Made by a program: the position numbers and the translations under genes
The notes under the pieces: generated by a model
The model's database searches: none
Told to the model about the DNA's origin: nothing
Seen by the model: only the letters and a program-made list of their open reading frames with translations
Source of the DNA: Symbiodinium sp. CCMP2592
Lineage: Eukaryota > Sar > Dinophyceae > Suessiales > Symbiodiniaceae
Reading direction: 5' to 3'
Assembly: GCA_905221615.1 (NCBI GenBank)
Contig: CAJNDT010004546.1
Location: 241,501-305,500, forward strand
DNA: 64,000 nucleotides
Shown: in pieces, positions 38,048-53,238 of the stretch
Position numbering within the stretch: position 1 is the stretch's first letter
Layout of the letters: every line of letters begins with the position of its first letter

Positions 38048-38080
38048 GTCTGTGACATAAGGGATCATAGAGTCTGTGAC
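38048..38080. repeat. TGT hairpin pair 1 (array terminus)
   Basis: GTC-TGT-GAC at 38048-38056 and again at 38072-38080, 15 nt apart. Each is preceded by GA or AGA and followed by ATA. It lies just past the stop of the last ORF. Confidence 0.6.
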
Positions 38081-38092
38081 ATATTACCGCCC

Positions 38093-39673
38093 TCACTGGT
38101 CATGACCTTTTGGCCACTGCTGAGAGTATCCATGCCAGGACCACTGCTGCCACCAGTCCCAGTCGTCGTCCTGAGATGAGCGTGCCTGTCTGGCCCACTG
38201 GGACGAGGAGGATGAGGAGGGGCCATCGCGCTGCCGCTTGCCCTCTGTGTCAGCCTCCTGCATCTGTGGGCGCTTGTGAGGTGCAGCAGCAGCCAGCTTG
38301 GCCATGCGCTTGTCCTCTTCGTTCCCCTTGTCATGCTGTATCCGCATCTTCATGATGGAGTAGGCATTTTTGTCGGGTTTGACCCGGAAGACACGAGCTG
38401 GGAGTCCAGCTGATTTGGCAGTCTCATTGTAGACTGCCACTATGGTGGTGGCGATCATATTGAACTCGACCCACGAGGGGAAGTGCTGCCGAAAGGCCTT
38501 TTCGTCCCACATCTTGTTAAAGCAGGCATGGATAAGGCCATGCACTTTTGTTGGTGCGTCCAGCTCACGGTAGGCGTCACCCGCGCCTGTGGCGATGGTG
38601 ACCTTCCCATCGCTTGTGAGGACCCGCCTCACCGACATGGCGGTGTCCCATGTGAGGCCGGTTTGCGTCCTTACGGACTTGATGGCAGAGAACAGCGGCG
38701 GAACTTCTCGGAGTGCTTCCATCCTGGTAGACCAAAGGGTCTGTTGTTCCTGGTTGGTGAGGCCGCCAAGAATGACCGGAGCCACCAGGATGTTGATGGA
38801 AGCTAAGGCCCGAATCCAGTCTTGATGGGACTGGGAGCTCAGCAGCTGAGCCAGCTCCTGCCGCGTGTAACGTACTGTCAGCCGTGGAGCCGGCTGTGGG
38901 ACATAGCCGACGAGTTCCGCATTGGATTCCGGAGGCTCATATGCTGACGGGGGGCGGGAAGAGGGAGGAGGGGGCGTGTGGGAGCGCGGAGCGGCCTGGG
39001 TGGCGGGGGTTGGAGGAGAGACGGACTTGGGGGGGTGCGGAAGGATCGGGGGAACCGGAATCGCAGGAGGGGGGGCTGGTGCCGCCGATGAAGAAGAGGG
39101 CGGGGGGCATTGGGTGGCCACCATGGGCGGTGGGGCCTTAACCGGAAGCGCCGGGGCCGCCTTCGGTGTCTCTGCTTGGCCTGCTTTGAAGGCCGCCTTT
39201 TCAGCTGCTGAGGAAGTGAAAGGGCACGGGGGGGAGGGTGGCGGCTCAAAGCCGGCTGCTTTGTCTACACCTTTGGTCCTGGTACTGCTGGGGGGAAGAG
39301 GAATTTCCTGTGGGAGCTTGGGGGGAGGAGGAGGGGGGGGAGTGTGGGGGTCTGGCGTGGCACTGAGTGCTGGGTTGTGCTTCTGAGTGACAAAGTGGTT
39401 CTTAAGGCCGTGGCTAGTGCTGAATTGCACCTGCCTGTTGTGCTTGCGGCAGTGCAAGCAGCATAGCCACATGTCCCCCGAGACTTTCACTTGCCCTAAT
39501 CCTCGAGGGATAAGCTCCAGCACATCCTGCTCTGTAAGGTCTTGATTGTAGTGGTGGGTTTCACGGACCGTAGCCATGATCTCTGCAAAGGAGTTGTACT
39601 GGATGCTGTCGGCCACATAGGCTTCAATATCCTCCTGAGTGGGAGGAGGGGGAGCCGATGAGGCGGTTGCCAT
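38093..39673 (-). CDS. Pro-rich protein with a C2H2-like finger (second half of the 38-41 kb ORF)
   Basis: Begins at ATG 39673 (MATASSAPPPPTQEDIEAYV), directly after hairpin pair 2, in frame with the glycosyltransferase ORF upstream. It has one CCLHCRKHNRQVQF...H-x5-H C2H2-like finger, a Pro-rich linker of about 190 residues, then a folded-looking domain (YTRQELAQLLSSQSHQDWIR to RVFRVKPDKNAYSIMKMRIQ), and ends in a basic Trp/Ser-rich tail (DDDWDWWQQWSWHGYSQQW). It could be a nucleic-acid-binding gag-like protein. A single CGCC-TGT-GGCG hairpin lies inside at 38584-38594. It may be translated separately or as a fusion. Confidence 0.55.
   Translation of the reverse strand: MATASSAPPPPTQEDIEAYVADSIQYNSFAEIMATVRETHHYNQDLTEQDVLELIPRGLGQVKVSGDMWLCCLHCRKHNRQVQFSTSHGLKNHFVTQKHNPALSATPDPHTPPPPPPPKLPQEIPLPPSSTRTKGVDKAAGFEPPPSPPCPFTSSAAEKAAFKAGQAETPKAAPALPVKAPPPMVATQCPPPSSSSAAPAPPPAIPVPPILPHPPKSVSPPTPATQAAPRSHTPPPPSSRPPSAYEPPESNAELVGYVPQPAPRLTVRYTRQELAQLLSSQSHQDWIRALASINILVAPVILGGLTNQEQQTLWSTRMEALREVPPLFSAIKSVRTQTGLTWDTAMSVRRVLTSDGKVTIATGAGDAYRELDAPTKVHGLIHACFNKMWDEKAFRQHFPSWVEFNMIATTIVAVYNETAKSAGLPARVFRVKPDKNAYSIMKMRIQHDKGNEEDKRMAKLAAAAPHKRPQMQEADTEGKRQRDGPSSSSSSQWARQARSSQDDDWDWWQQWSWHGYSQQWPKGHDQ
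38584..38594. repeat. single TGT hairpin inside coding sequence
   Basis: CGCC-TGT-GGCG, a 4-bp stem without a close partner. It could be coincidence. Confidence 0.3.
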
Positions 39674-39709
39674 GGTCTGTGACCTAGGTGGCTGTGGTGA
39701 GCTGTGCTC
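39674..39709. repeat. TGT hairpin pair 2 (domain boundary)
   Basis: GGTC-TGT-GACC (39674-39684) and GAGC-TGT-GCTC (39699-39709), 14 nt apart. It lies exactly between the glycosyltransferase part and the MATASS start. Confidence 0.75.
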
Positions 39710-41272
39710 TTCAGGTCTGTCAGACTGGATTTCAAGGGAGATGTCAGGGAGTTGGCTCTGCAGCATGCGGTCTGTGCGTTCCTTGGTGGTTGGGTCTCCC
39801 TGAAATCCCTTCAGCCACTTCCAGCACCGGGTATATGCAACGGTCGTGTTGTTGGTAGTCACGAAGTAGTGGCCATCATTGTCGTACTTCTTGTTCTTCA
39901 CTCGCTTGTCCCAGCGCTCCGAGAACAGGTAGATGGGGCCAAATTTGGTGGAAACATTCCATCCCGGCTGAGGGGAGTGACCAAGGTCGCGACCCAAGAT
40001 CTGCCAAAGATATTTGCAGAAGGTCATGTATTCCAAGTTTGCCTTCGCTGTCATAACCTGACGGCTGAAGGCGTGCTGTATGGCTTCCCTCATCAAGGGG
40101 TGTCTGGGCTTGCCATAGATGATGCCTTGAAAAATATGATCTCCTTTGACTCCTATGGCCATGACCATGAACTCCTGTGGGAGTTGGCCAGGTGGGGAGG
40201 GTCTGTGACCCACTTCACCTGCCTTCTTTGAGTGAGCTGTGCTCCAATCTGCTGCGAGATACACGAGTACCTGTTCCCAAGGTACCACGAAGCCACATTT
40301 GATGTCGACGTAGAGGCCGCCGTGCTGGTAGTGGTAGACGTAGCGGAATACGTCTGCTCGATGAGCAGGTTGGCTGAGGCGATCCAGCAGATTGGAGCCG
40401 TACTTTCCTGCGAGTTGCCGCAGGGTAGCCCGAAGAACATCATCATCACAGAATCTGCGGGTGAAGCCAGCAAACATTTTGGCCGCGACTTGGGCCGGTT
40501 CCGGCTTTTCGTCGTGAACGTAGGTCTGGAAGAGGAGGGCTGGGACAGGGGCGGCTTCCCATTCTGGGAGATGTGTGAAGCGCATTCCCCAGGGGCCATG
40601 TCCGTATTGCATGGCTACCTCTGAAAGATCACGGACCGTTCGGCATTGTGACAGAGCCTGGGCAGCTAGCATTTCGACATGCATGTCCTGCTCGCGAGCG
40701 TTCCAACCAGCGACCACGAGGACAGGCAGTCCTGGGGTGTTGCGCATTTCCTCGATGGCTCTGGTTACAAGCGCCGGGATGACAATGTCCGCGACGTCGG
40801 GGCGGAAGTGAAGGTTCTTGGAGTTGTAGAGCCATTCTACCCCTCCTACACCAGGCATCTGGGCCAGGTCCATGATTTCTTGGTTGTGCAGGTTCTTGTC
40901 CGCAAAACCATATTGGACCCTGCCATCGATCAGGTAGTCATAATTGATTTGCTTCTCCGGGCGCAGGCTTCGGGACAGCGGAATGAAGCGAACGTTGATT
41001 TGTCCGTCGAGGTGGTTCTCCAAGATGGAGGCCACCGGCGGACTCTGCACTGCCGCTGTGAATTTGTGCGGCCCAAAGAGCCCAAATTGCCAGTGGAGGA
41101 GCTCCAAGATGGAGGGGACGCTGCCGGCAGAAATGTTGAGGGCGGCGCCTGGGCAGCTTAAGACCTGTCCCGTCAGCAGCGGGAACACTCCGTAAGTGTG
41201 TCCCCGCAGCATGTGCTGCAAGGTGCTATCGCTGAGCACCAGAAAAGGGCCCAGACTGGGAGGTTTGTCCAT
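39674..41272 (-). CDS. OCH1-like glycosyltransferase ORF
   Basis: ATG at 41272 (MDKPPSLGPFLVLSDSTLQH); the frame upstream lacks an ATG near a boundary, and hairpin pair 4 lies just 5'. Residues about 245-490 fit the glycosyltransferase sugar-binding DXD family (OCH1/Gly_transf_sug): PALLFQTYVHDE, then HRADVFRYVYHYQHGGLYVD at 304-323. The usual D-x-D reads D-I-K here (residues 323-325), so metal binding may differ. The first 240 residues contain VLSDSTL and VLVVAGWN, faintly SGNH-hydrolase-like. Hairpin pair 3 falls in a linker at residues about 343-358. Reads in frame into the zinc-finger ORF. Confidence 0.65.
40199..40244. repeat. TGT hairpin pair 3 (in ORF linker)
   Basis: GGGTC-TGT-GACCC (40199-40211) and GAGC-TGT-GCTC (40234-40244), 22 nt apart, inside the glycosyltransferase ORF. 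They are read as WSTAHS and GHRPSP. Confidence 0.75.
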
Positions 41273-41299
41273 GGTTTCAGCTGTAGCTGATGGGCCAGA

Positions 41300-41334
41300 G
41301 TCTGTGACACGCGGCCAAGTGGTGAGCTGTGCTC
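41300..41334. repeat. TGT hairpin pair 4 (5' of glycosyltransferase)
   Basis: GTC-TGT-GAC (41300-41308) and GAGC-TGT-GCTC (41324-41334), 15 nt apart, about 30 nt upstream of the ATG at 41272. Confidence 0.7.
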
Positions 41335-41693
41335 TTCGTAAAACGCAGTTTGTTACGAGAAGTAGCTTCTGCAAGGCGTGTCTGTAATGCATGTTGCGAT
41401 ACTCCTGCCGCTCTGTCCGGTACAACAGTTCGAACTGACAGCTGCGGTATACATGAAATGCTTTGCAGAGTCTCAAGACCAAGCTCGAAGCTCAAGTAAC
41501 GCTGGACGACTATAGGCAAAGAACACCAGCAGAGGGCACTCGGGCTGAGAGTTGGTGCCGTGTGGTAGCTGAGACCTCAGATCTCAGATCGCAGGTGAGA
41601 GCAAACAATGATGCAAGTAGCTGAGTGTTAGCATGCTGCAACGTCGATTTCTCTGGGCAGGGGAGCCACTCGTCGCTGACTGTGACAAGTTGG

Positions 41694-41726
41694 GTGGCTG
41701 TGCCACACCTGATCGGAGGCTGTGCC
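41694..41726. repeat. TGT hairpin pair 5 (intergenic)
   Basis: GTGGC-TGT-GCCAC (41694-41706) and GGC-TGT-GCC (41718-41726), 11 nt apart, between the stop near 41771 and the next ORF. Confidence 0.75.
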
Positions 41727-41770
41727 ACTTTCCTTGCGTGAGTCAGTGAACTGCCTATGGCCCGAAGTGC

Positions 41771-42403
41771 TCAGAAAAGTCTGTAGTAGTGGTCGTAGAG
41801 AGCACTGGATTCCTCTGCTGCTCGGCTGATGGTTGCCGTTGGCCCGTCCGGGTTACGGGGGTTCCGGAACTTCTGCACCACGACCTGTTGGCTGTGCTGA
41901 ATGTGGATGGTAAGCTCTTCGGACGCGAGATGCCACTGGGGCGTGTCAAAGGACTGGACCATGACACGTAGGCCGAGAGACATAGCTGCCCTGGCAGTGC
42001 GGTGTGGACTTACAAAGAGCTTATGCTCTACCTGGGAGAGCACTGCTGCGCACCAGGATTTGCTAACCGACGCCAGTGAGAGGGCCGTCAGCAAGTCTGG
42101 CTGCGGTATCGCTAGTCTGACATGGACGCCCTGTTGGTCATAGTCAGTGTCTTCGTACCGTTGCGCAAAGACAGCTAGGCCTTTATGTAAACGGCGAAAG
42201 GCCCAGAGGCGTGCTTGGTCCTCGATCTCGTTCCGGAGCAGCAGTATGGGAACTATAGTCCAGGGGGGTCTGTATGCAGCGATTTCAGTTGCCAGCATGT
42301 CCCTGTCCAAACCGTAGTCCGAGTAGAAATCCACAACCACCACTGCAGGAATGATGAAGGAGAGAGCGCAGCGACATGATTCGGTGCAGAGAGGGGATGA
42401 CAT
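41771..42403 (-). CDS. F-box-like repeated ORF, copy 3
   Basis: 210 codons, ATG at 42403 (MSSPLCTESCRCALSFIIPA). GVHVRLAIPQPDLLTALSLA followed by SVSKSW (Trp 117) aligns with GVHAQLGIVNLNLLQAIPLA+AVCRAW in the 170-codon ORF and MHLIYEVTQPRLKQVRRLA+TVNRVW in the 218-codon ORF. The conserved core, L-x5-LA-x-V-x-R/K-x-W, resembles the C-terminal half of an F-box. The rest is unrecognised. Flanked by hairpin pairs 5 and 6. Confidence 0.55.
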   Translation of the reverse strand: MSSPLCTESCRCALSFIIPAVVVVDFYSDYGLDRDMLATEIAAYRPPWTIVPILLLRNEIEDQARLWAFRRLHKGLAVFAQRYEDTDYDQQGVHVRLAIPQPDLLTALSLASVSKSWCAAVLSQVEHKLFVSPHRTARAAMSLGLRVMVQSFDTPQWHLASEELTIHIQHSQQVVVQKFRNPRNPDGPTATISRAAEESSALYDHYYRLF

Positions 42404-42548
42404 CCTCTATGGTTGGCAGGGCAGCTGAGAGCAACCTAGAAAAAACTGCGGAGAAACTTACTTAAAAGCGCAACAGTGAGCCGCAACGCTAAGGGGCAAC
42501 GCTGATCGGGTTTGCCTTTTCCAGAGTGGAGAAGCCCGGCTCGTCGCA

Positions 42549-42580
42549 TGGTCTGTGACCAATTGTCTGGAGGCTGTGCC
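42549..42580. repeat. TGT hairpin pair 6 (intergenic)
   Basis: TGGTC-TGT-GACCA (42549-42561) and GGC-TGT-GCC (42572-42580), 10 nt apart, at the 3' end of the 170-codon ORF. Confidence 0.8.
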
Positions 42581-42587
42581 CTTTGCC

Positions 42588-43100
42588 CTATAGAGGACGT
42601 CGCAAGACTGAGGTCGGAATGAAGTGCACCTGCTCATAGTGGACGCTGATGGCCTCTCTCGAAAGGGTGCCGGCTTGATCCGGCAGTACTTCAATGAAAA
42701 CTCCTGCTCCTTGCTTCCGCAGTTGGATGTAGGCTCTCCACACTCCTATCCAGGGTTTGCCGTCGATGAGGCGGGCAGTTTCGGAGTACCACGCACGGCA
42801 AACCGCCGCAAGCGGTATTGCTTGTAGCAGATTGAGATTGACGATGCCGAGCTGAGCATGCACTCCATTGTGGTCAATCCTGAGTGTGTCGCCGATAATG
42901 GAGTACTGCGAGAAGGGACCCGTACGAGCCCAACGTAGAAGTAGGTCACGTAGGCGATCCCGAGTGGCACGAGCTTCATCATGAAGAAGGTCCAGATCGT
43001 TCCAGTAGGAGACGGGATAGGGCGAGGCGTCGTAGGAGTCGAGTGTTAGTACCCCTGGGAGCAGGTATTTCATAGCTTGGCGCAGAGAGAGCTCGTCCAT
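42588..43100 (-). CDS. F-box-like repeated ORF, copy 2
   Basis: 170 codons, ATG at 43100 (MDELSLRQAMKYLLPGVLTL). It shares an N-terminal LLPGVLTLDSYD-like segment with copy 1 (LTPMLLSLDFYL) and the LA-x-VCRAW core (Trp 104). It is the most compact of three tandem, strongly diverged paralogs. Substrate-adaptor function is only a guess from the motif and the nearby USP-like domain. Confidence 0.55.
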   Translation of the reverse strand: MDELSLRQAMKYLLPGVLTLDSYDASPYPVSYWNDLDLLHDEARATRDRLRDLLLRWARTGPFSQYSIIGDTLRIDHNGVHAQLGIVNLNLLQAIPLAAVCRAWYSETARLIDGKPWIGVWRAYIQLRKQGAGVFIEVLPDQAGTLSREAISVHYEQVHFIPTSVLRRPL

Positions 43101-43323
43101 GGCAGTTAGGGGACGCTGGTAGCTAGCTGACAGAGACTGGCAGGCAGCAGGGGACGTGCCGAGAGGTAGCTCAAGTCAAAGTGAGCGCACTACTAACTCT
43201 GGCTGGCGCGGAGGATGCCCAGTTTTCAAGCCGAGAGCAGCTTCAAAAAGTTAGAAACCTTAATGGCTCAGTTAGGCCTGTTGCTCGGCCGTCGCACCAG
43301 CCAATGTTTCGGTTATCGGCCGT

Positions 43324-43363
43324 GGGCTGTGCCCTATAATGCCAGCAGAGGTGCGCTGTGCGC
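43324..43363. repeat. TGT hairpin pair 7 (intergenic)
   Basis: GGGC-TGT-GCCC (43324-43334) and GCGC-TGT-GCGC (43353-43363), 18 nt apart, between F-box-like copies 1 and 2. Confidence 0.75.
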
Positions 43364-43397
43364 TTCTGAGAGCTACGCTGTAGTCTTCACCTGCTGA

Positions 43398-44054
43398 TCA
43401 GTCCTGGGGCGCGTGCGCTAGCAGGTCATCGTAGCTGTCAAAGAGGAGCGCATGCCAGGCATTGAAGCCCGAGGCGCGGTAGGCAGCGGCGGGAGCTGTG
43501 CGTGCCAGAGGTGAAGTGAGGGTCTCAACCGGCAGTCGAAACGCCATCGAGACCGGGAGGCAGAAGATATCCCGGCCTTCCCGAATCGACACTGAGCCTG
43601 TCTTGCGCAGGCGTGACATCGCCACCAAAAGTTCCACTGTATTGATGCGGGCTTGACCAGAGATCATGGCTGATATGAGGTCATGCCATACTCGGTTGAC
43701 AGTGGCAAGTCGTCGAACCTGTTTTAGACGCGGCTGCGTGACCTCGTAGATAAGGTGCATGTCAGTCAGGTCCAGTGTGTCCGGCGCAGAGGGGGGGACG
43801 TAATTGATGGAGAGGGCCGGCCAGTGGTTAAAGCACTCTTGGAGAAGTTTCAGGAGACCTGTTCTGGCTGCTGTCGATCTGTCCGTACGAAACGCGTCCT
43901 CGGTTGGGGTGAGGCCTGGTCCCGTGAGGCTGGACTGGCTGCTCGAGCCGTCGATGGCTGTGTGATCCAGGTCTGTCAGCCGCAGGTAGAAGTCGAGGCT
44001 TAGAAGCATCGGCGTCAGGAAGTGGAAGATTCGCTGAACAAATGCGTCCTCCAT
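43398..44054 (-). CDS. F-box-like repeated ORF, copy 1
   Basis: 218 codons, ATG at 44054 (MEDAFVQRIFHFLTPMLLSL). The core RRLATVNRVWHDLISAM has Trp 123. Compared with copies 2 and 3 it carries an extra Ser/Thr-rich insertion (about residues 30-65). Gene order and spacing suggest tandem duplication followed by rapid divergence. Confidence 0.55.
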   Translation of the reverse strand: MEDAFVQRIFHFLTPMLLSLDFYLRLTDLDHTAIDGSSSQSSLTGPGLTPTEDAFRTDRSTAARTGLLKLLQECFNHWPALSINYVPPSAPDTLDLTDMHLIYEVTQPRLKQVRRLATVNRVWHDLISAMISGQARINTVELLVAMSRLRKTGSVSIREGRDIFCLPVSMAFRLPVETLTSPLARTAPAAAYRASGFNAWHALLFDSYDDLLAHAPQD

Positions 44055-44197
44055 CGTTGCAGGCTAGCGAATGGAGGCAGAGCCAAACTTGGGAGCCTAA
44101 AAGGACTGAAGAATGGCAGTGATTTGTTACTGCGATGCATAGAAGCACGTGTGCTGCAATTCCTGCTATAACTTTAACCGACAAGCAGAGATGGTCG

Positions 44198-44228
44198 GAG
44201 ACTGTGTCTCAGCTCAGGAGGCTGTGCC
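44198..44228. repeat. TGT hairpin pair 8 (intergenic)
   Basis: GAGAC-TGT-GTCTC (44198-44210) and GGC-TGT-GCC (44220-44228), 9 nt apart, immediately past the stop of the dioxygenase-like ORF. Confidence 0.8.
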
Positions 44229-44235
44229 ATTCGAA

Positions 44236-45195
44236 CTAATCATCTGCTGTGCCTAGCGGCAGACGAAAACCCAGCTCTGTCAGGCGCTGTTGCAGCGTTG
44301 GTGAGAAACGAGAGACGCCTCTTACCGTGTAGGCCGCCAAAACTACACGAGTATAGGTTTCCCATGGTAGAGTTGCATGCCACAGCTCATCCGCCCGAAA
44401 GAGAAGGCTGAGACCCCGTAGGTCAAAGCAACTTCCCCGGGTCATCCCCTGCTGGTGCGGGATCTCCTGGTAGTCGCAGCCGTCAGGGTCTTCGATCCAT
44501 AGGCCGCCCTGGTCGCAAATCGAAATCGGGATGAGCAGAGTGCCCAAGGCAGCATTGCGAGCATCTTTGTGCGGTGGGGACTGCACATCCACTAAGATTT
44601 CAAGCGAAGTCCACTGGTGACTTGGATGACATGAGCACACGAATGCGTTGAAGAGACGAGTGACGTTGGGATGGGAGACCGTCTCCTTGAGCAGGCCAGG
44701 GAGAACTCGGCAGTAGGCACCAACCCGAAAGCGCTGGCCACATGAAGAGCCAGCCGCACTGGGAGAGTGCTCCCATCTGTCGTGGGCCTCGAAAGGTAGG
44801 TGCTGCAGAACCTGGCGGACCGAGGACCAGATGGAGAGACAGCGAGAAGTGAGACAGTTGTTAGCTATCTGCTCTGCCTTTGGCACCATGTGTAGTAGTC
44901 CTCCGTGTGGGATGGGATTGACTAAGCAGCCTTCCTCCAACCCGGAGCAGGGCATGGTAGTCATGGACTCGAGATACTTCTCGAATTGCTGCCACTGTAG
45001 GGGTGGGAGAGCTTTGTATGCCCATGCCGTTATGTCATTTGATGGCCATGTTCCCGCTGCCGGGGGCAGGGACACGTGGGCCTCCGCACAGTACAACTTC
45101 AGCGCCGAAAGGGTGAGGTAGTCCTCCATGTAGTCTGCGAAGACCCCGGCGGGAAAGGAAATGGCCCGGATTGGGCAGTCATTTTCGCCAGCCAT
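44236..45195 (-). CDS. 2OG-Fe(II) dioxygenase-like ORF
   Basis: The ATG at 45195 gives about 319 codons (MAGENDCPIRAISFPAGVFA); the frame is open further upstream without an ATG. Residues about 150-310 have the double-stranded beta-helix signature. H209-x-D211 lies in PPHKDARN, LIPISICDQGGLWIEDPDG follows, and H273 with R283 lie in WHATLPWETYTRVV. These supply the two metal-binding His, the Asp and a 2-oxoglutarate-binding Arg. The same block, in the same order and spacing, is in the retroelement ORF at 57869-61153 (H238-x-D240, H300, R309). TET/JBP-like or other 2OG oxygenase; substrate unknown. Dinoflagellate DNA contains hydroxymethyluracil, so a DNA base is a possible but unproven target. 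Confidence 0.6.
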   Translation of the reverse strand: MAGENDCPIRAISFPAGVFADYMEDYLTLSALKLYCAEAHVSLPPAAGTWPSNDITAWAYKALPPLQWQQFEKYLESMTTMPCSGLEEGCLVNPIPHGGLLHMVPKAEQIANNCLTSRCLSIWSSVRQVLQHLPFEAHDRWEHSPSAAGSSCGQRFRVGAYCRVLPGLLKETVSHPNVTRLFNAFVCSCHPSHQWTSLEILVDVQSPPHKDARNAALGTLLIPISICDQGGLWIEDPDGCDYQEIPHQQGMTRGSCFDLRGLSLLFRADELWHATLPWETYTRVVLAAYTVRGVSRFSPTLQQRLTELGFRLPLGTADD

Positions 45196-45344: not shown

Positions 45345-45379
45345 AGAGTCTGTGACTCAGGCTGATGTGGACTGTGTCC
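45345..45379. repeat. TGT hairpin pair 9 (intergenic)
   Basis: GAGTC-TGT-GACTC (45345-45357) and GGAC-TGT-GTCC (45369-45379), 11 nt apart. Confidence 0.8.
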
Positions 45380-45419: not shown

Positions 45420-45453
45420 GGCTGTGCCATATGCCGCTGAGTGGACTGTGTCC
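45420..45453. repeat. TGT hairpin pair 10 (intergenic)
   Basis: GGC-TGT-GCC (45420-45428) and GGAC-TGT-GTCC (45443-45453), 14 nt apart, just past the stop of the kinase-like ORF. With pair 9 it makes four hairpins within 110 bp. Confidence 0.75.
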
Positions 45454-45465
45454 TGCGATTGAAGC

Positions 45466-46700
45466 CTAGTCCATTTCCGCCCAAATGCCCTGCAGCTCAG
45501 TAGCCGGTGTCGAGGGCGCTGGCTCGTTCGAGCTGGCAGCCGGAGGAGGTGGTGGAGGTGGAGGGTGCTCGAGAGCATTCTCCAGCATGAGGTAGCCATC
45601 CTGGTTGCTGTACTTTTGGTACGGCAGGACCTCCGTGTACATGGTCCGGATGTGGCTGCCCATGGTCCTGAGCCTGCAAGATAGGAAGAACCTTGCGTAA
45701 GCAGCAGATTCCTCCCAGCTTCCGGAGTCCAGGGAAGCCCGTTTGGGATCTTCTGGCCCGAAGAGCCCGGATGCATTGGATTTTTGCTGCTTGGAGTAGG
45801 AGAAAACGGCGGTGGCCAGTCGGACGTTGCCGGCTTCATCATACAAGCCGGCTTGCACGGTGATCGAGGGATCGATGGCAGTCTCGTACCAGCTTCCTCC
45901 GGGAAAGGCAGATTCTGGCCATTTGGGTGGAGTGAGGCCAGCGAGATTCTCCCATTCTGCCAGCTCGACGCGAAGGTGCTTGGGGAGTTTCGGGGGCATC
46001 GGGAAACCCGACGCAGTGTCGCGCCAGCACTTGTTGCCCACGATTCTTGGCCCACGACTTCGACGGAGATCGTCTTGCTGAGCCTGTAGTAGTCGCCTCT
46101 GACGGTCCTGGTGGGTCGCTCCATAAGTTCGTGAGGAGGACGATGAAGCATTCCTCCCTGGCCAAGGGCTCCGTAGCCCAAGCTGAGAGGATAGACACTT
46201 TCCCCCGCGGTGCCGCCGAAATCGATCAGGACATAGGTGGGAGGGTCGTAGCGCACCATGATGTTGCCCATGTGGATGTCCGCGTGAACCAGTTGGCTGG
46301 AATGCACTGCGTTGAGGGCAGACCGGATGTCAGCGACGAGATTGACGACATGGTCCGTCGTCATGGAGGGGATATGAGCAGGGTACAGACGTGGCAGTAA
46401 TAGCGTTGGGCCCTGCTGCCAGAAAGCCTCGATGATGGTGTTGATGGGCGGGAATCTCGATAATCTGCTAAACTCTCTTCTGGCCATGTACTCTTCCTGA
46501 GGCCTCGTGACTTTCTTGAGCACAAAGTTTGCAGCACTGGAATTGAAGACCGCGCTGGCGTATCCCTTTGCGATCTTCACGCCTAAGAGCTCTGGTGAGA
46601 TGGCGGAAGTCACTTGGGGGTCAACCGGTCGTCGAAGTCCAGGCATATGGCTCCGACCAAGAGCCTCATGCACTCCATCAGAATATGGAGCTCGATCCAT
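45466..46700 (-). CDS. protein-kinase-like ORF with one frameshift
   Basis: ATG at 46700 (MDRAPYSDGVHEALGRSHMP). Kinase features are a Lys pair in NFVLKKVTRPQEEYMARREF (K62/K63), the catalytic loop LVHADIHMGNIMV (H139, D141, N146) and DFGG (D160). The HADIH loop is like atypical, aminoglycoside-kinase or Bud32-type kinases rather than the usual HRDLK. After about residue 210 (YYRLSKTI) the frame must shift by one base near 46070 to continue as WRDTASGFPMPPKLPKHLRV, ending with a poly-Pro stretch and a stop near 45466. The shift is decay, programmed, or an indel error. Confidence 0.6.
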
Positions 46701-46720
46701 CACAGCGTGAGTGGGAGATA

Positions 46721-46753
46721 TCGTCTGTGACGAATCCGTGCTGCACTGTGTGC
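46721..46753. repeat. TGT hairpin pair 11 (5' of kinase-like ORF)
   Basis: TCGTC-TGT-GACGA (46721-46733) and GCAC-TGT-GTGC (46743-46753), 9 nt apart, about 20 nt upstream of the kinase-like ATG. Confidence 0.8.
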
Positions 46754-47146: not shown

Positions 47147-47318
47147 AGTGCTAAGGGCTCGAGCCAGGCTGGTACGCTCAGGAAATCAAGTGGAACGAAG
47201 TGATCTGCTCACGACAGGCTCCCTGCGTTTTGCTGCGCAGCTGGAACTTTGTTGAAAGAATCAGCAGCCTTGCTAGTCACGCTGTACGTGAGTGAAGAGT
47301 GCAAGACGGATCAGAACA

Positions 47319-47352
47319 TCAGCTGTGCTGAGGAAGTTAGTGCACTGTGTGC
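47319..47352. repeat. TGT hairpin pair 12 (intergenic)
   Basis: TCAGC-TGT-GCTGA (47319-47331) and GCAC-TGT-GTGC (47342-47352), 10 nt apart, just past the stop of the 264-codon ORF. Confidence 0.8.
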
Positions 47353-47368
47353 TTCCACTAGGCCAAGC

Positions 47369-48163
47369 TCACGGGCGGCCTCGAGCCTTGCGAGCCAGTC
47401 CTCCCGGCGCCTTGCGACCCAGGCGTTCAAAGCCATCATGGGAGTCAAAGAGGGAGGCAAGGAGGGAGAGATAGGGCATGAGGTCAGAGTAGATGGCCAC
47501 CCTGAAGTCAAGGATAACGTGCGTCTTGAGCTTGTTCGGCTTGGCAGAGCAGTGCACTATTTCCTGTGCCAGCTTGGTCTTGTCGGTAGTGATATTGATC
47601 ATGGAGTCCACCACCTTCAGGAGCTTGCCGTACTCCGTCTTGTCCACGTGTTCTGGAGGGTTGCCTTTGGTCAGTTCGTGGAGGAGAACTAGGGAGACCG
47701 CGTTCGAGCATGATCCCTCGGGGTGAGGTTCTCCTTGGCGCAGCTTCTTCAAACCTCCCTGCCAGGATTTCACAGACGCAACTAATGCCTTCGAAAGCTG
47801 ATGGTCTTGAGGTAGTTTGTAAACCAATGATAGCTGGTGCTGCAGCAGGCTCATTTGGTCGTCGTGCACAAGGAAGGCTTTGGTGAGCTCTTCCGGGCTC
47901 AGCGCCTGGATGGCACCAGATTGCGCCCGGGGCTGGGTGCCTTGCCCAAACCCTTGGATCGCACCAGGTCCTTTCTGCCTCGGGACTGATTTGCGGCGAG
48001 GCTGGTCTTGCTGCCTCGGCAGGGCAGCGGCCTTGGCCGCAGGCGAGAGTGACTCGAGTGGAGGCTCTTCAGAAAAATCCATTCCCGATGCGTCCTCATT
48101 GTCTGTGCCGTTTCTGGAGCGTTTGTGCTCCGGACTCTTGACGGCGACAGGGGAAGCGGTCAT
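47369..48163 (-). CDS. LINE ORF1-like basic protein
   Basis: ATG at 48163 (MTASPVAVKSPEHKRSRNGT), about 264 codons. A basic, low-complexity head with NLS-like EHKRSRNG and RRKSVPRQKG is followed by a helical body (AFLVHDDQMSLLQHQLSLVY; VDSMINITTDKTKLAQEIVH). No zinc finger or RNA-recognition motif is evident. Its place beside the EN-RT polyprotein suggests an ORF1 or gag role, but here it lies downstream of ORF2, the reverse of the usual LINE order. Confidence 0.45.
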   Translation of the reverse strand: MTASPVAVKSPEHKRSRNGTDNEDASGMDFSEEPPLESLSPAAKAAALPRQQDQPRRKSVPRQKGPGAIQGFGQGTQPRAQSGAIQALSPEELTKAFLVHDDQMSLLQHQLSLVYKLPQDHQLSKALVASVKSWQGGLKKLRQGEPHPEGSCSNAVSLVLLHELTKGNPPEHVDKTEYGKLLKVVDSMINITTDKTKLAQEIVHCSAKPNKLKTHVILDFRVAIYSDLMPYLSLLASLFDSHDGFERLGRKAPGGLARKARGRP

Positions 48164-48387
48164 GCCGGCCGTGTAGTCGGAGCGGAAGCTATACAAAAAG
48201 AGGGCGAGCTGATTGAGAGGAAAAAGTATTGCGGTATGTGCATATCCGCGTGCGCGCATGACGCACTTGGCCTTGACGTGAGGTGGCCTATGCCAACTTT
48301 CAATTGACTATAGGCTTCTCACGCACGGGCGCCCCGCAGTGCCCTTGAGGACGAAGCTGGGCCGGAATGCATCACCTAGCGATGATG

Positions 48388-51300
48388 CTAGCGAATTCGT
48401 TGCAAGAAAAGCATGTAGACATTCCTGGAGATGGACAGGTTCAAGGCCGCTGAGGCCTTTTCCGGAAGCCTGTAGTCGTCGGAGATCCAAACCTGAGAGG
48501 CGGTATCCGCTGGGTCCTCTGGCCAAAAAGCGCGGTAGTGCCCAGAAGAAAGGGAGTCCCCAAAATGGGCAACTCCTGCTATGACCTGATAGTGACGCTG
48601 AGTGCGAGCATCACTTGAGGTCCATACAGGCACCGTGGTGCGGCCTGACCAAAGACACGGCTGAGTGTTCTTGACTCCATCCTGCCAGCGGCAAATCACA
48701 ATTGCTAGGAGTTCAGGTGACCAAACTAGCGCGCGGGAGAAGATCTGGGACTCCCACAGCCGTAAGCAAGTCGAGAGTGACAGAGGGCCAGGCGGGAGGG
48801 GAAGAAGGAGTGGGCTGACTCCCACATCTGAATCCTCAACCTCGCCATCTGTTCGACCCTGCCACTGGGTTTGTTGAAGGGAGCCGAAAGGCTTGGACTG
48901 CATATGCAGAAGCAGCTCTGAGACATCATGCTGTCTGCCGTCAAGTCGCCAGCCTGAGATGGCATGGCGAAATTCAAACAAGCCAAACAGGTTCAGTAAT
49001 CTGGGGGCTCGCTCGTCGCCTAGATGGGATAGGACGGACTGGAAAGCACCTAGGTCATACCCAAAGCTCGAGATCTGATGCAGAGCCTGGAATAGGGCAT
49101 TAGCGTAACACGAGTTGGACGTGTTAGTCAGAGCGCGTTTGTGCACTCCTTCGGGTCTAATTTCCGCTTGTCCTGAGGACTGCGGATCAGACGCCTGCTT
49201 GTCTGCCGGGGTGTGACGAGCTGTGCTCGACTGATTGGAGGCTGTGCCATTCGACCGTGGCTTAAAGAAGTGGGTCAGTGACCGTTCTTGGGGCTTGGAG
49301 GGGGGAGCAGTAACGGCTTCCTCTGCCTCCGGTTGCCCTCGCAGCCACTGTGTACTCACCTGATAAAGTACGGGGCATTGTTCCGGGTGCAGTCGACGAT
49401 CATAGACCTTGTAGCCGCAGAATGAACACGGGTGTCCCTTGGCAAGGTGAGGCGAGAAACCCTGACATATAGAGACTGCGCGCTTGTGCAGCCTTGACCA
49501 GTCCTTAGGATGCGCCTGACGGAAGTGTGACTTGACTTTAGTGTGATCGAAAGTCCAGAAGTCACACGTGAGGCACCTATGGATCAGGACCCGGGCCTCC
49601 GGCGTCTTTGAGATCACCGCTATTCGATGTTGTGGGAGTTGGGCAATGTCCTGTCGCAGCTGGGACAGGGTCCTTACCTCAGGGTGACTTGAGTGTTTGT
49701 CAGTCACGTTCAGAGTTCGAAGCTTCTGGGGTTCCGGACATGCTCCTGACAACAAGTGGTCACGTAGACCTTTCCATTGATGAAATTTGCGCATGCAAGC
49801 GGCACATTGCGGCATCCCATCCACCGCGTGGAGTTGCCGATCGAAGCTTGATGGCACAAATCGGTCAATGCTGGCTGGATGCACTCTCGACTTGTGTAAG
49901 TGTAACCCGTTTGCTGTCTCGAAGGAGGCATCGCAGAGTGTGCATGCATGTAGGGCTACAGGGTGCTCAACTGTTTCAGGGAGCTGTGACATGAAATGCA
50001 GCTTGTCCCGGATGACTTGCAGGACAGAAGGATCGGTTGTGATATCTGGGCTTCTGGCTGCACGCCGCTCAAGTTTGCGGAGTCGCTTCCTGAGCTTGAC
50101 CTGCATCGCTTGAACTGGGTCCTGTATGCTATAAAGCTGGAAGAGGTCCTTAGTGGTGATGCGGCTGGTGTGTGCTGGCAAGTTCAGCACTGATCGCACC
50201 TTGTAAGCATGCCAACTGCGTAGCTGCTTGGCCGACTCCTCGCTGAGTCCGACGTCTGAGAGGCCTGTAGTCAGTGTGCTCAGGACTGTGCTTTGCCAAA
50301 CCTTAAGTCTCGACATGGTGCTCGCGTGCCGGCGATTGTAGACAAACTGGCGGACTTGATGCAGCTTTTGCTTGGCTTCCCCAATGCGGTAATGTAAGGA
50401 CTGCAGCTCGAAGTGGTTGTAGGAGATCATAACCCCCAGGTACTTGCTACAGGAGACCCACTGGAAGGCGGGGAAAGATTTGTTGGGCCCTATGCGCCAT
50501 CCGCGAACCTGCTCGCCCTTGGAGTTGGTGATCCAGCAGCCATGTTTGTTCATCACGTTTTGAGATTCTCTTCCCGCTAACTTCACTAAGATGACGCACT
50601 TGCTAATGTTGACGCGAAGGCGGTGTTTTCGGACCTCTTCAAGTAGCGCTGCGATGAGAGCATGAATGGCCCTGAGGTCCTTGTCAGAGCGGATAGTCCG
50701 ATGAAGCGTGAGATCATCAGCATAGCCTGTCAGGAATTTCAAGACCTGCTCAGCACCGAATAGGTCAACCAGAGAGCGGAAAAGGTCACCTGTAAGGAAC
50801 GAGAAGAGCGTGGGGGCGAGCTTACATCCTTGTTTAATGCCTGCTGTGGTTTCAACAGAGGTGGAATCTCCCTGCGCGTGAAGAACATAACGAGACCCGT
50901 CATGTAGAGCCTGAACAAGGTGGACTGTGTCCTGATCGGCCCCTTCTCTCTGAAGAAGGTCAATGATCTCTTGGCGAGAGACAGTGTCAAACGCTTGGCT
51001 GAGGTCAAGAGCGAAGGTGAGGCCGCCTACTAAGGCTGGGGCCTGTGTGCCTTGTTGCAAGGCATGTCTCGTGGGGTGAGCCTGTTCTAGCAGGGATCGA
51101 GCCTCTCGCAAGTGATGCACAACGCGTTCTAGCGCGTCTGACAGCCCCCGACCTGGTAGATAAGCGAACTGTGGCATGTGCTTGAGGAACGAAAGTGTCA
51201 GTGGTTGGAGCGCTTCTCTGGCCGCTCCCGCCAGTCCCTTTGCGTCAGGTCTAAGGATGCCCAGGGGTCTCAGGTTTGCGGGTTTGTCAGAGGGCTTGCC

Positions 51301-53238
51301 CGGCTTGGGTATTAAACAGAGATCTGCGTCTACGAGGTCGGATTCTAGTCTGTCCTCGGCCTGCTTGGATGCTACGTGTTCGGAGAGGACCGGTGCAACG
51401 AGATCGCTACACAGCCTCCATACAGCCGCTGGTGCCGCTCCGTCAGGAACAGCTTTGTTCGGTTTGATGGAATGTATGTGAGCTGCTAGTTTGGGTGGCT
51501 CTAAAGCAGGGAAAGCGCCATGCATTGTCCGTAACGGAGGGTGGGCCGCAAAGACCTGATTGGCATAGTCCCTGAGGGCTGCTAGTTCCTGCGCTGGACC
51601 TAGGAGATGTCCTGTGTTGTCCTTTAGCTGAGCTCTGCGCGCGGGCTGCCAAGGCTGCAGCTTTTTGAGGGTCTGGAAGGAGATATGTTGATCACCTTCA
51701 GCTAGACACGCGTCCACCTCCGATATGAAACTCGCAATTCGATCTTTCTTTGCTTGTTTCACAGCCTGGCGATGCGCCACTTGTGCCAGCTCAGCTTCTG
51801 TTTCCGGCGGACGTGGCGTGTTCTGATTAGGAGGCTGTGCCATTGCTTTAGGTAACTCGATCAGCTGTGCTGAGGGAGTGGTATTCGCAGCCCTGTCATG
51901 GGTGCGGGCCCGCCACATGCGACGGGTTTCCGATTCCAGCGGGATCGGTCTTCTTTTAGGAGTTTTTGGGAAAAAGCGTTCTGCACCTTCCAAAAGCAAC
52001 GCATTCCATGCCTTGGGGTCCTGGCAGGTGTCGATTCTGGAAGCGATCCAGTTGTGCAGGGCCTTGGCCGTATCGTCCTCCTCCCTGACTGAGGCTTGTA
52101 GAGCTAGTGAATCATACCGGCGCGTGCTGGGTTTGTGGGACGGGAGCAGCCAGTGGTGTTGGAGGGGTACGTCAGCCTTGAGTGGGTAATGCCCTCCTTT
52201 CTTCCAGCTGCCCAACGGACAGTCCACCCAAGGGGCTGACCGTTTGGCTTTGCCTCCCGCCGTAGATTCTTTGGTTAGAATGAAGTCAATTTGCGACTCC
52301 ACGCCTCCTTGTGAGAAGGTAGCTATATGGTCACATTGCCAGGTGTTAAGGGCAACCAAACGCAGCCTGAGCAGCAGATTGAACAAGTTGGATTCGTCAG
52401 GGCGGTCCTCAGTGGGTGGCTTCACATGCGTTCCCACCAATGGAGGGCTCGGACGCAGGGAGGTGTTAAAATCGCCTGCTACAATAAGGGAGTCCCTCTT
52501 AGGCACCTGCTTGATCACCTTGGACATGACAGATAGTACCTTAGCACGGTCGTCCTTATTGGACTGGATGGTCTTGGCAGAAGACCAAGCGTGTTGGTAC
52601 ACCGCGACAACAACCAGCCGAGTACCTGCAATGTCCGCACGAGCTTCTAAGACTCTACCCGGGCTCCACTCCTTCCAGCGTAAGCTCTTGGGGACGAACT
52701 TGGGAGAGAATAGGATCATGACTCCATCAGCGCGAGTCGTGGATGGAGCTCGCGGTTCTTGCCGAGTGTTTCGCTTCGCTGCTTGTTTAGGCCGGGTGTT
52801 GGGTTTGGTAGACTCCGAGGCTGAGGAGATACAGTACCACCCAGAAACGCTGAATTCACTGGTCTCAGTCCAGTGCGTTTCCTGCAATATGAGGATGTCG
52901 CAGTGATGAGAGGCTTCAGCTGCTAGCCATGTTTTGAGTTCGCCCCATTGCTGTTGGCCTAGGTGGCCCGCGTTCCACGAAAGAACTCGAATGGATCTTT
53001 CCAACCTTCCTGCCCTGCGGGAGGCTGTGCCATATGCAGGGGAGTCAGCAGTCTGTGACTGAAGCTCTCTTCGAGTGGGTGGGGGGCGCACCCCCAGACG
53101 ATCAACCAGGGTAGGTGTCAGAACCTGCCCTCGGTATGGTACGGGCCCGTCACTACGGACTGTCCTTCTACATGCTGTCTTGAACGAATTCTTACGAAGA
53201 GATGCAAAGTTTTGTGAGTGCACTGGCAATTGCGCCAT
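48388..53238 (-). CDS. LINE polyprotein: endonuclease - reverse transcriptase - zinc fingers - USP-like protease
   Basis: 1616 codons, uninterrupted, ATG at 53238. Residues 83-355 are an APE-type endonuclease: VLSWNAGH, LQETHW, VAGDFNT, SQIDFIL and GGHYPL. Residues about 585-1010 are the reverse transcriptase: LDLSQAFD (745), GIKQGCKLAP (800) and GYADD (838-842). Four Cys/His fingers follow: CTLCDASFETANGLHLHKSR (about 1099), CAACMRKFHQWKGLRDHLL (1145), CLTCDFWTFDHTKVKSHFRQ (1222) and CSFCGYKVYDRRLHPEQC (1271). SLTHFFKP (1320-1327) is PIP-box-like. Residues 1368-1616 match the ubiquitin-specific protease (C19) fold, with Cys box NTSNSCYANALFQAL (C1377), QHDVSELL (1436), His box SGHYRAFW (H1567), WISDD (D1588) and terminal VYMLFLQR. 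The catalytic triad is intact, so deubiquitinase or related activity is plausible. Three hairpin sites lie in the linkers before EN, before RT and before USP. Confidence 0.88.
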   Translation of the reverse strand: MAQLPVHSQNFASLRKNSFKTACRRTVRSDGPVPYRGQVLTPTLVDRLGVRPPPTRRELQSQTADSPAYGTASRRAGRLERSIRVLSWNAGHLGQQQWGELKTWLAAEASHHCDILILQETHWTETSEFSVSGWYCISSASESTKPNTRPKQAAKRNTRQEPRAPSTTRADGVMILFSPKFVPKSLRWKEWSPGRVLEARADIAGTRLVVVAVYQHAWSSAKTIQSNKDDRAKVLSVMSKVIKQVPKRDSLIVAGDFNTSLRPSPPLVGTHVKPPTEDRPDESNLFNLLLRLRLVALNTWQCDHIATFSQGGVESQIDFILTKESTAGGKAKRSAPWVDCPLGSWKKGGHYPLKADVPLQHHWLLPSHKPSTRRYDSLALQASVREEDDTAKALHNWIASRIDTCQDPKAWNALLLEGAERFFPKTPKRRPIPLESETRRMWRARTHDRAANTTPSAQLIELPKAMAQPPNQNTPRPPETEAELAQVAHRQAVKQAKKDRIASFISEVDACLAEGDQHISFQTLKKLQPWQPARRAQLKDNTGHLLGPAQELAALRDYANQVFAAHPPLRTMHGAFPALEPPKLAAHIHSIKPNKAVPDGAAPAAVWRLCSDLVAPVLSEHVASKQAEDRLESDLVDADLCLIPKPGKPSDKPANLRPLGILRPDAKGLAGAAREALQPLTLSFLKHMPQFAYLPGRGLSDALERVVHHLREARSLLEQAHPTRHALQQGTQAPALVGGLTFALDLSQAFDTVSRQEIIDLLQREGADQDTVHLVQALHDGSRYVLHAQGDSTSVETTAGIKQGCKLAPTLFSFLTGDLFRSLVDLFGAEQVLKFLTGYADDLTLHRTIRSDKDLRAIHALIAALLEEVRKHRLRVNISKCVILVKLAGRESQNVMNKHGCWITNSKGEQVRGWRIGPNKSFPAFQWVSCSKYLGVMISYNHFELQSLHYRIGEAKQKLHQVRQFVYNRRHASTMSRLKVWQSTVLSTLTTGLSDVGLSEESAKQLRSWHAYKVRSVLNLPAHTSRITTKDLFQLYSIQDPVQAMQVKLRKRLRKLERRAARSPDITTDPSVLQVIRDKLHFMSQLPETVEHPVALHACTLCDASFETANGLHLHKSRVHPASIDRFVPSSFDRQLHAVDGMPQCAACMRKFHQWKGLRDHLLSGACPEPQKLRTLNVTDKHSSHPEVRTLSQLRQDIAQLPQHRIAVISKTPEARVLIHRCLTCDFWTFDHTKVKSHFRQAHPKDWSRLHKRAVSICQGFSPHLAKGHPCSFCGYKVYDRRLHPEQCPVLYQVSTQWLRGQPEAEEAVTAPPSKPQERSLTHFFKPRSNGTASNQSSTARHTPADKQASDPQSSGQAEIRPEGVHKRALTNTSNSCYANALFQALHQISSFGYDLGAFQSVLSHLGDERAPRLLNLFGLFEFRHAISGWRLDGRQHDVSELLLHMQSKPFGSLQQTQWQGRTDGEVEDSDVGVSPLLLPLPPGPLSLSTCLRLWESQIFSRALVWSPELLAIVICRWQDGVKNTQPCLWSGRTTVPVWTSSDARTQRHYQVIAGVAHFGDSLSSGHYRAFWPEDPADTASQVWISDDYRLPEKASAALNLSISRNVYMLFLQRIR
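49217..49248. repeat. TGT hairpin pair 13 (zinc finger/USP linker)
   Basis: CGAGC-TGT-GCTCG (49217-49229) and GGC-TGT-GCC (49240-49248), 10 nt apart. They are coded as SSTAR and NGTAS between the last finger and the USP-like domain. Confidence 0.8.
50922..50932. repeat. single TGT hairpin inside RT
   Basis: GGAC-TGT-GTCC coded as DTV in the RT domain, with no partner within 25 nt. It has the same stem as members of pairs 9 and 10 but may be coincidence. Confidence 0.35.
51833..51873. repeat. TGT hairpin pair 14 (EN/RT linker)
   Basis: GGC-TGT-GCC (51833-51841) and TCAGC-TGT-GCTGA (51861-51873), 19 nt apart, in the linker between endonuclease and RT. Here the coding strand reads MAQPP and SAQLI, a different frame from pair 13. 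Confidence 0.8.
53023..53061. repeat. TGT hairpin pair 15 (array 5' boundary)
   Basis: GGC-TGT-GCC (53023-53031) and CAGTC-TGT-GACTG (53049-53061), 17 nt apart. It lies just upstream of the first endonuclease motif; no further hairpin was seen beyond it. Confidence 0.8.

Follow-up and report, generated by a model that had tools for sequence, protein, structure and literature searches.

What are the small palindromes that recur along 15 kb of the window, the 64,000-nucleotide stretch of Symbiodinium sp. CCMP2592 DNA analyzed here, and what keeps them in place? Between positions 38048 and 53061 we counted 305 TGT triplets, not the roughly 235 assumed in the initial annotation. Perfect stems of at least 3 bp flank 37 of them, stems of at least 4 bp flank 23, and stems of 5 bp flank 10. 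The claimed excess over chance stands, as 200 first-order Markov sequences gave means of 5.45, 1.39, and 0.38 and maxima of 12, 6, and 2 for these three classes. TGT also ranks first of the 64 triloops by stemmed fraction (12.1% with at least 3 bp; next, 5.1%). A CTGTG core is present in 32 of the 37 stemmed sites and absent from the other 5. This restores the number first reported, 32 C-TGT-G mini-hairpins with stems of 3 to 5 bp, which read C-ACA-G on the sense strand. Thirty form 15 pairs spaced 20 to 34 nt from loop to loop, and those at 38588 and 50926 are single. The observation itself is thus confirmed, and its interpretation is partly supported, as detailed below.

The array lies within one LINE-type retrotransposon of about 15.96 kb with eight main ORFs, on the minus strand, from a 5' end near 53530 to a 3' end near 37572, with (TAG)n-type microsatellite on each side. 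TAG-like repeats adjoin the 5' junction at all eight loci (window included) and follow the 3' end in all 14 other copies in which that end was located (18 examined); the 3' end is A-rich in most copies. Since (TAG)n flanks both sides, a target-site duplication is not recognizable here. The element encodes a LINE-type reverse transcriptase (RT) with an APE/EEP endonuclease upstream of it, and its many dispersed copies share common ends. No long terminal repeats were seen in the element, whose 3' end carries an A-rich or repeat tail. At least 28 further copies with an open, full-length ORF1 occur in the same genome, making 29 places with the window copy. The initial annotation did not recognize the whole 15 kb as one LINE. 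A 64-nt repeat at 53620 to 53683, beyond the element's 5' boundary, is similar to the 3' terminus of a neighbor. Searches of viral contigs and genome contigs returned no relatives, and tblastn of 47 proteins and the eight window ORFs against fetched flanks found no others at 1e-8. Rfam gave 0 matches, and no tRNAs were found.

We then scored all 58 CTGTG of the element for complementarity outward, pair by pair, blind to palindromes. Pairs 2, 3, 4, and 5 were complementary in 38, 35, 28, and 19 cases (chance, about 14.5) and pairs 6 to 9 in 9, 18, 21, and 15. Pairs 2 and 3 were both complementary in 55% of CTGTG sites, compared with 30% for the best of 122 other pentamers. Orientation is strict: at least three pairs form at 32 of 58 CTGTG and at 0 of 10 reverse CACAG. 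Inside the element, 22 hairpins of at least 4 bp fall in 15.9 kb, while the surrounding 87.8 kb hold 4, none of them paired (the rest of the window contributes 3 in 48.0 kb, the fetched flanks 1 in 39.8 kb). The pairs are spaced along the element more evenly than random (CV, 0.61 versus 0.94; P, 0.03). An artefact of chance or composition would fit the short stems, whose stability was ordinary when 13 of the 15 pairs were folded as RNA (z, +1.1 to -2.4), but is contradicted by the Markov, pentamer, and flank controls and by the conservation described below; we find it scarcely credible.

The annotated stem variation holds in part. Loop and pairing are constant and stems differ by site; seven hairpins, however, share a fixed box, GGCACAGCCTCC (sense), preceded by AT in five, and stems are therefore not freely variable at all sites. 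Dimeric transcription-factor sites were considered and rejected, as there is no fixed half-site and pairs 2 to 5 use three or four pair types and are still complementary. A second hairpin family near 3.1 to 3.6 kb of the window (ACCAT cores) proved to be a 17-nt tandem satellite.

All ORFs and hairpin sites are given on the minus strand, from 5' to 3'. ORF1 (1,616 aa; 53238 to 48388) encodes an EEP endonuclease (residues 86 to 263) upstream of an RT (residues 643 to 937), followed by Cys/His stretches and a C-terminal UCH-type deubiquitinase domain, with Pfam matches to PF03372 (2.5e-6), PF00078 (3.3e-22), and PF00443 (1.4e-5). Among solved RTs, LINE-1 ORF2p chains score best. The Cys/His stretches appear zinc-finger-like from their residue pattern and from one weak transcription-factor match. 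Pair 1 (53023 to 53061) lies in the linker before the endonuclease, pair 2 (51833 to 51873) in the endonuclease-RT linker, a single hairpin (50922 to 50932) within the RT domain, and pair 3 (49217 to 49248) in the zinc finger-UCH linker. ORF2 (296 aa; 47369 to 48259) has no assigned function; in three gene models from Symbiodinium (P0016, P0025, and P0013) it comes after the RT. Pair 4 (47319 to 47352) follows its stop by 16 nt. Pair 5 (46721 to 46753) is 20 nt upstream of the ATG of ORF3 (45466 to 46700), which is kinase-like and broken in the window copy by a 14-bp duplication near 46036 to 46059. The extra 14 bp are missing in all 17 copies aligned across this place, and a single frame is open for 434 to 439 codons in 15 of the 17, with C1252 and C2735 having indels of their own; C1182 aligned in two pieces. 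Pair 6 (45420 to 45453) is 12 nt past the ORF3 stop in the frame of the other copies, and pair 7 (45346 to 45379) is in the ORF3-ORF4 gap.

ORF4 (44236 to 45195) has an HxD...H pattern, which may point to a 2OG-oxygenase-like fold, and is fused upstream of an ORF8 homologue in P0038; pair 8 (44198 to 44228) begins 7 nt past its stop. ORF5 (43398 to 44054) has no assigned function and is followed after 34 nt by pair 9 (43324 to 43363). ORF6 (42588 to 43100) and ORF7 (41771 to 42403) are possibly paralogous to ORF5, given weak identities of 25% and 18%, respectively; pair 10 (42549 to 42580) is 7 nt past the ORF6 stop and pair 11 (41694 to 41726) 44 nt past the ORF7 stop. Pair 12 (41300 to 41334) lies 27 nt upstream of the ATG of ORF8 (1,059 aa; 38093 to 41272), which comprises a glycosyltransferase-like (DXD) domain (PF04488, 21.0 bits, below the cut-off of 23), a proline-rich linker, and a C-terminal domain. 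Within ORF8 are pair 13 (40199 to 40244, glycosyltransferase-like domain), pair 14 (39674 to 39709, linker), and the single hairpin at 38584 to 38594 (plus strand, CGCC-TGT-GGCG). Pair 15 (38048 to 38080) is 12 nt past the ORF8 stop and about 480 nt before the element's 3' end. Structure models were of low confidence (pLDDT, 40 for ORF5 to ORF7 and 43 for ORF8), and Foldseek with the ORF8 model gave no match below E 0.001.

Like L1-like, APE-type LINEs, the element has EEP and RT in one ORF, no long terminal repeats seen, and near-identical copies. It differs from typical members in its size of about 16 kb and its eight main ORFs, which include kinase-like and glycosyltransferase-like ones; in the RT protein's deubiquitinase-type domain; and in its (TAG)n flanks and its paired hairpins dispersed along the sequence. 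To our knowledge, no other LINE has dispersed paired triloop hairpins, and our literature search found none reported.

The hairpins lie, as annotated, mostly in gaps between ORFs and in interdomain linkers, read in different frames. This distribution bears on the main rival explanation, in which they are cistron-end signals for cleavage, polyadenylation, spliced-leader trans-splicing, or termination-reinitiation, enabling translation of the eight ORFs. Downstream of seven of the eight stop codons lies a hairpin, at 7 to 44 nt (for ORF3, in the frame of other copies), two further pairs are those 20 and 27 nt upstream of the ORF3 and ORF8 ATGs, and the constant CACAG ends in AG. Eight ORFs on a single eukaryotic RNA require some such expression device. 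Yet no hairpin occupies the gap between ORF1 and ORF2, and 1,035 nt pass before one is reached downstream. Of the 32 hairpins, 12 are within ORFs, including one in the RT domain, and cleavage there would sever the message. A palindrome is also unnecessary for a splice acceptor. We regard this explanation as possible, if on the unlikely side.

To examine selection, we compared 18 copies from the same genome with the window copy at all 32 hairpins, excluding ORF3 from the codon classes. Only 2 of 352 hairpin sites vary, compared with 351 of 2,562 sites in the other noncoding DNA of the element; 5,000 block permutations gave a mean of 39.4 variable sites and a minimum of 16. Counted as mismatch cells, hairpins have 2 of 5,197, other noncoding DNA 863 of 41,793, and third codon positions 1,332 of 48,789, and third codon positions inside hairpins have 0 of 496. 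The C-ACA-G core has 0 of 2,285 (31 hairpins, 38588 left out). In 10 copies, there are no changes from -4 to +6 around the loop center, and variation reaches the background level beyond. Of the two substitutions, the one at 43353 in pair 9 of copy C1252 leaves an outer G-U in place of G-C on the sense strand; the other, at 39684 in pair 14 of copy C447, breaks an outer pair. As judged from these substitution patterns, the alignments show that the hairpins are selected nucleotide structures with an invariant C-ACA-G core, under strong purifying selection in coding and noncoding DNA alike. Selection on nucleotide structure, as initially proposed, is thus borne out. In the copy alignment suggested with it, the hairpins are frozen and not decaying, and no two-sided compensatory change occurs among the 18 copies.

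The same alignments argue against mobile or recently inserted palindromes. No gaps occur at hairpin positions in the 18 copies wherever these are covered (31 hairpins, 38588 left out), the orientation is single, and no pairs occur in the surrounding 87.8 kb. Fungal mitochondrial double-hairpin elements consist of two small hairpins side by side, as in the window pairs. Those of the window differ in belonging to a nuclear retrotransposon, in being fixed in the examined copies and conserved, and in giving no sign of recent mobility. Mini-palindromes or double-hairpin elements inserted into permissive sites would suit the gap and linker positions, the paired arrangement, and the recurrence of GGCACAGCCTCC in seven places. 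An old insertion would also account for the P0002-type relatives, in which aligned hairpins are absent and the linkers of pairs 1 and 2 fall short by about 8 and up to about 20 residues. At pair 13 in ORF8, by contrast, the lengths of the aligned relatives differ by no more than one residue, so the hairpins at 40204 and 40238 arose by substitution and not by insertion. As a general explanation of these frozen hairpins, insertion is very unlikely, with an old event conceivable at pairs 1 and 2.

Diverged relatives were compared by peptide alone, a site being said to admit a hairpin when its peptide is compatible with C-ACA-G, whatever its actual codons. At the majority of aligned sites, P0001, P0036, and P0037 (48 to 59% identical) admit hairpins, in many cases with stems that differ. 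At sites with a changed peptide, the test (shifts of up to 2 columns allowed) admitted hairpins in 2 of 3, 3 of 5, and 4 of 5 cases, respectively, where one P0037 site needed a column shift and the single hairpin at 38588 accounts for two of the sites admitted in P0036 and P0037; as a control, hairpins that occur by chance in the window were admitted in 1 of 15, 1 of 16, and 1 of 10. In P0001, all 3 admissible pairs lie in the three linkers that hold window pairs, 24 to 25 nt apart. Its peptide admits pair 1, the first hairpin with another stem; at pair 3, the aligned place admits no hairpin and a pair is possible elsewhere in the same linker. At the peptide level, P0036 admits both hairpins of pair 13 with other stems and P0037 only one of the two, and both admit a pair at pair 14. 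More distant relatives admitted few aligned sites (P0038, 0 of 5; P0041, 0 of 5; P0005, 0 of 4; P0003, 1 of 4), and we take a hairpin admissible in P0043 and P0044 near the 40238 site as chance. Among 256 cores, the number with at least as many admissible pairs as CACAG was 10 for P0001, 2 for P0036, 39 for P0037, 55 for P0038, 84 for P0003, and 256 for P0041 (no pairs), so that P0001 and P0036 alone stand out by pair number. Counting ACA loops over whole peptides, with the C-G closing pair not required, was uninformative in 11 proteins (ACA ranked 3, 28, 44, 15, 18, 16, 22, 22, 31, 46, and 20 among 64 loops), and our conclusions draw on the position-specific tests alone.

The hairpins could also act at the level of DNA or cDNA, as single-stranded cDNA hairpins or cruciforms with a part in integration, in template switching, or in recombination among copies. 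In favor are the many near-identical copies and C1302, where a second element fragment lies behind a truncated one. However, the sites run along the whole length in one orientation (32 versus 0), and the alignment breaks that we saw (38648, 39191/39089, 44329, and 46050/45975) are not at hairpins, which leaves this reading improbable.

Another possible reader of the triloops is a Roquin-like host protein acting in mRNA decay or silencing. The available part of the source on Roquin CDEs describes triloop hairpins read by shape, with possible tandem use, as in UCP3, no stem sequence preference, and solved complexes with UGU and a C-G closing pair, which is the plus-strand core here (PMC6294493). 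In the element, however, the loop on the ORF strand is ACA, not YRN, with UGU only on the opposite strand; stems are 3 to 5 bp, not 6 to 8; and sites also occur in coding sequence. A mobile element is unlikely to keep a decay signal against itself, and we know of no Roquin here. We consider this explanation very unlikely.

The reading we favor, tentatively and as somewhat short of probable, is that the hairpins are binding sites for a protein, scattered along the genomic RNA and serving RNP assembly or packaging. This very large LINE with its many ORFs would thus carry cis-acting recognition sites over the length of its RNA, those in ORFs mostly in tolerant linkers. A protein, probably encoded by the element, would read the triloop atop a stem of nearly any sequence, and it may bind as a dimer or in pairs, because the sites are tandem and 20 to 34 nt apart. 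With roughly one docking point per kilobase, some sixteen in all, such binding could then assemble the 16-kb RNA into a retrotransposition particle and favor the element's own RNA. As sequence potential, one RNA carries many stem-loops with a common loop motif and variable stems. The conservation, the pairing, the peptides of the three closer relatives, the even spacing, and the presence of sites both within and outside ORFs speak for packaging. Against it are the ordinary folding stability, the few sites admitted by more distant relatives, the lack of two-sided changes among the copies, the broken outer pair at 39684, and the bias to positions just past stop codons, which packaging alone does not predict. 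Nor was a capsid or nucleocapsid protein recognized by Pfam on ORF2 to ORF8 or with the low-confidence models of ORF5 and ORF8. Packaging signals of single-stranded RNA viruses, as presented in the available text of PMC6281560, are likewise many dispersed stem-loops with a common motif on one genomic RNA, whereas the sites here are tandem pairs with short stems in a retrotransposon with no recognized capsid protein. An RNA stem-loop in a LINE has a precedent in the LINE 3' stem-loops of PMC5135761, in the part available, in contrast to the about sixteen sites over the whole RNA here. A further step, which we think unlikely, is that this LINE forms a virus-like particle, with a distributed code of some sixteen mostly tandem C-ACA-G hairpins, its stems turning over, read by an element protein to select and compact the RNA.

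LINEs of Symbiodiniaceae have been described, in the available part of PMC8045281, as highly divergent remnants; the family here, with open ORF1 at no fewer than 29 places, is by contrast young. Compensatory-mutation tests are straightforward here, since the core is invariant, the stems are interchangeable, and the near-identical copies number more than two dozen. In LINEs generally, recognition of their own RNA is attributed chiefly to the 3' end or to cis-preference. Should the virus-like-particle reading hold, we would know of no earlier packaging-signal system in a LINE, and such elements would fall between LINEs and RNA viruses. Many frozen, structured sites along a LINE offer a handle on how a large RNA may be recognized, protected, or expressed as several proteins.

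The stretch that carries the hairpins is a single mobile element encoded on the minus strand (about 53530 to 37572). The domains of ORF1, the presence of other copies and the TAG-flanked ends together identify it as a LINE, about 15.96 kb long and with eight main ORFs, inserted in a microsatellite. ORF1 combines an EEP endonuclease with a reverse transcriptase (RT) and a UCH-type domain, and the best-scoring solved RTs for it were those of LINE-1 ORF2p. Among 45 protein relatives of ORF1 and ORF8, all 8 with an organism name were from Symbiodinium, so that the host is probably Symbiodinium or close to it; gene models keep the ORF order (RT-ORF2-ORF3 in P0025, RT-ORF2 in P0016 and P0013, ORF4-ORF8 in P0038). 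ORF1 is encoded without stops at 99-100% identity in at least 29 places of the 1.098-Gb assembly, window included, a lower bound, as scoring covered 29 of the 4789 first-look candidates. TAG-like repeats adjoin the 5' end in 8 of 8 loci, again counting the window, and the 3' end, which mostly reads ...CAATTGAAAA, is followed by TAG repeats in all 14 copies where that end was found (8 of 10 and 6 of 8 copies looked at). We infer that the element targets the microsatellite.

Within the 5' leader, 130 nt (53256-53385) are unchanged in the copies covering them. A 14-bp duplication at 46036-46059 frameshifts ORF3 in the window copy and is absent from the 17 copies whose alignment covers the place. 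ORF5, ORF6 and ORF7 (41771-44054) look like weak tandem paralogues with an LAxVxRxW stretch, which we take to be F-box-like; together with the UCH domain in ORF1, such a stretch would be consistent with a ubiquitin theme. At C1302, a copy stops matching at window position 38648, beyond which lies a piece of a second copy (equivalent to window 52360-49961), suggesting tandem insertion. Immediately upstream of the element, on the far side of the TAG array, a segment of about 150 nt (53620-53770) has an end similar to the 3' end of the element (84% across 64 nt); it may be a truncated neighbour, a sister family or a SINE-like passenger that occupies the same microsatellite. Within 57289-60667, an RT-like piece (57289-57609) and a piece resembling ORF4 (60134-60667) may be relics of another, distant multi-ORF LINE.

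The initial annotation had described 32 short palindromes of the form stem-TGT-stem' between 38048 and 53061, 30 of them in 15 pairs, and our recount gave the same figures. In this interval, 37 of 305 TGT triplets have a stem of at least 3 bp (5 bp in 10 hairpins), and the core of 32 of these 37 is CTGTG, or C-ACA-G on the sense strand. When all 58 CTGTG in the element were taken, ignoring flanks, the next four pairs outward were complementary in 38, 35, 28 and 19, and the positions beyond in 9, 18, 21 and 15. None of 10 CACAG on the plus strand, the opposite orientation, had three pairs. Seven hairpins share the box GGCACAGCCTCC. Elsewhere in the window, TGT-loop hairpins showed no excess at 56-64 kb, and an apparent hairpin family at 3084-3573 proved to be a tandem satellite of 17-nt units with ACCAT cores. 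Outside the element, at 8940-8956, there is one isolated C-ACA-G hairpin with a perfect stem of 7 bp.

Eighteen of the 28 other listed copies entered the comparison; each covers 8.3-16.0 kb, their identity is 97.0-99.45%, and 7 of them cover ORF1. Only 2 of 352 sites in all 32 hairpins vary, versus 351 of 2562 noncoding and 822 of 12786 coding sites outside them; in 5000 random placements of blocks matched in length and coding status, variable sites averaged 39.4 and never numbered fewer than 16. Mismatch cells numbered 2 of 5197 in hairpins, 863 of 41793 in other noncoding and 1996 of 168543 in other coding sequence, although site counts are the safer figure because the copies share ancestry and cells are not independent. 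With ORF3 left out, mismatches at third codon positions were 0 of 496 in hairpins versus 1332 of 48789 outside, and at second positions 1 of 464 versus 188 of 48817. Counts with 31 hairpins over 10 and 18 copies gave a similar picture. Both hairpin changes hit outermost pairs, turning G-C to G-U on the sense strand at 43353 and breaking the pair at 39684.

For diverged relatives, we asked of their proteins whether any codon choice could yield a C-ACA-G hairpin; the chance rate for one of 4 bp is 0.3-1.3% of residues. At aligned sites with a changed peptide, hairpins were admitted at 2/3 (P0001), 3/5 (P0036) and 4/5 (P0037), with controls (chance window hairpins, other cores) at 1/15, 1/16 and 1/10. 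P0003, P0005, P0038 and P0041 admitted 1/4, 0/4, 0/5 and 0/5 (controls 1/19, 1/19, 0/11 and 1/15). Some peptide changes are readable as matched pairs (GHRP to EHSS, EHSS to GHSP, QSQT to QAQP). All three admissible pairs of P0001 fall in the three inter-domain linkers, spaced 25, 24 and 25 nt; at homologous places lie 2 of 4 in P0036 and 1 of 1 in P0037. These protein comparisons indirectly support a turnover of stems with pairing kept in the nearest relatives. In P0002-type relatives, the endonuclease-RT linker and the zinc finger-UCH linker could accommodate single hairpins. The linkers of these relatives at pairs 1 and 2 are shorter, so an old origin by insertion is possible at these two.

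Of the 32 hairpins along the element, 20 fall between ORFs and 12 inside ORF1 and ORF8. The ORF1 pairs sit before the endonuclease, in the endonuclease-RT linker and between the zinc fingers and the UCH domain, and a single hairpin lies within the RT. Successive pairs are separated on average by 1070 nt (CV 0.61 versus 0.94 for random, P 0.03). From ORF2 to ORF8, the next pair follows the stop codon by 16, 12, 7, 34, 7, 44 and 12 nt, where the stop of ORF3, which is broken in the window copy, was taken from the frame that other copies keep open; the nearest hairpin downstream of the ORF1 stop is 1035 nt away.

We conclude firmly that the hairpins are bound to the element, keep one orientation and are under selection as a nucleotide-level feature in which complementarity is central. 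They likely act in RNA, because their orientation follows transcription. Control of processing or translation is a serious rival, favoured by the bias to places after stop codons. Because the sites span the entire RNA, within and outside ORFs, we favour a role as protein docking sites that would serve RNP assembly or packaging. A docked protein would need to stabilise the hairpins, since folding energies are ordinary in the 13 of 15 pairs that were folded. Roquin decay elements (PMC6294493) come closest in loop and stem, but the element's sense loop and stem length do not fit. The likeness to packaging signals (PMC6281560) lies in layout. LINEs of Symbiodiniaceae were reported as highly divergent in one comparison (PMC8045281); the family of this element is young within its own genome.
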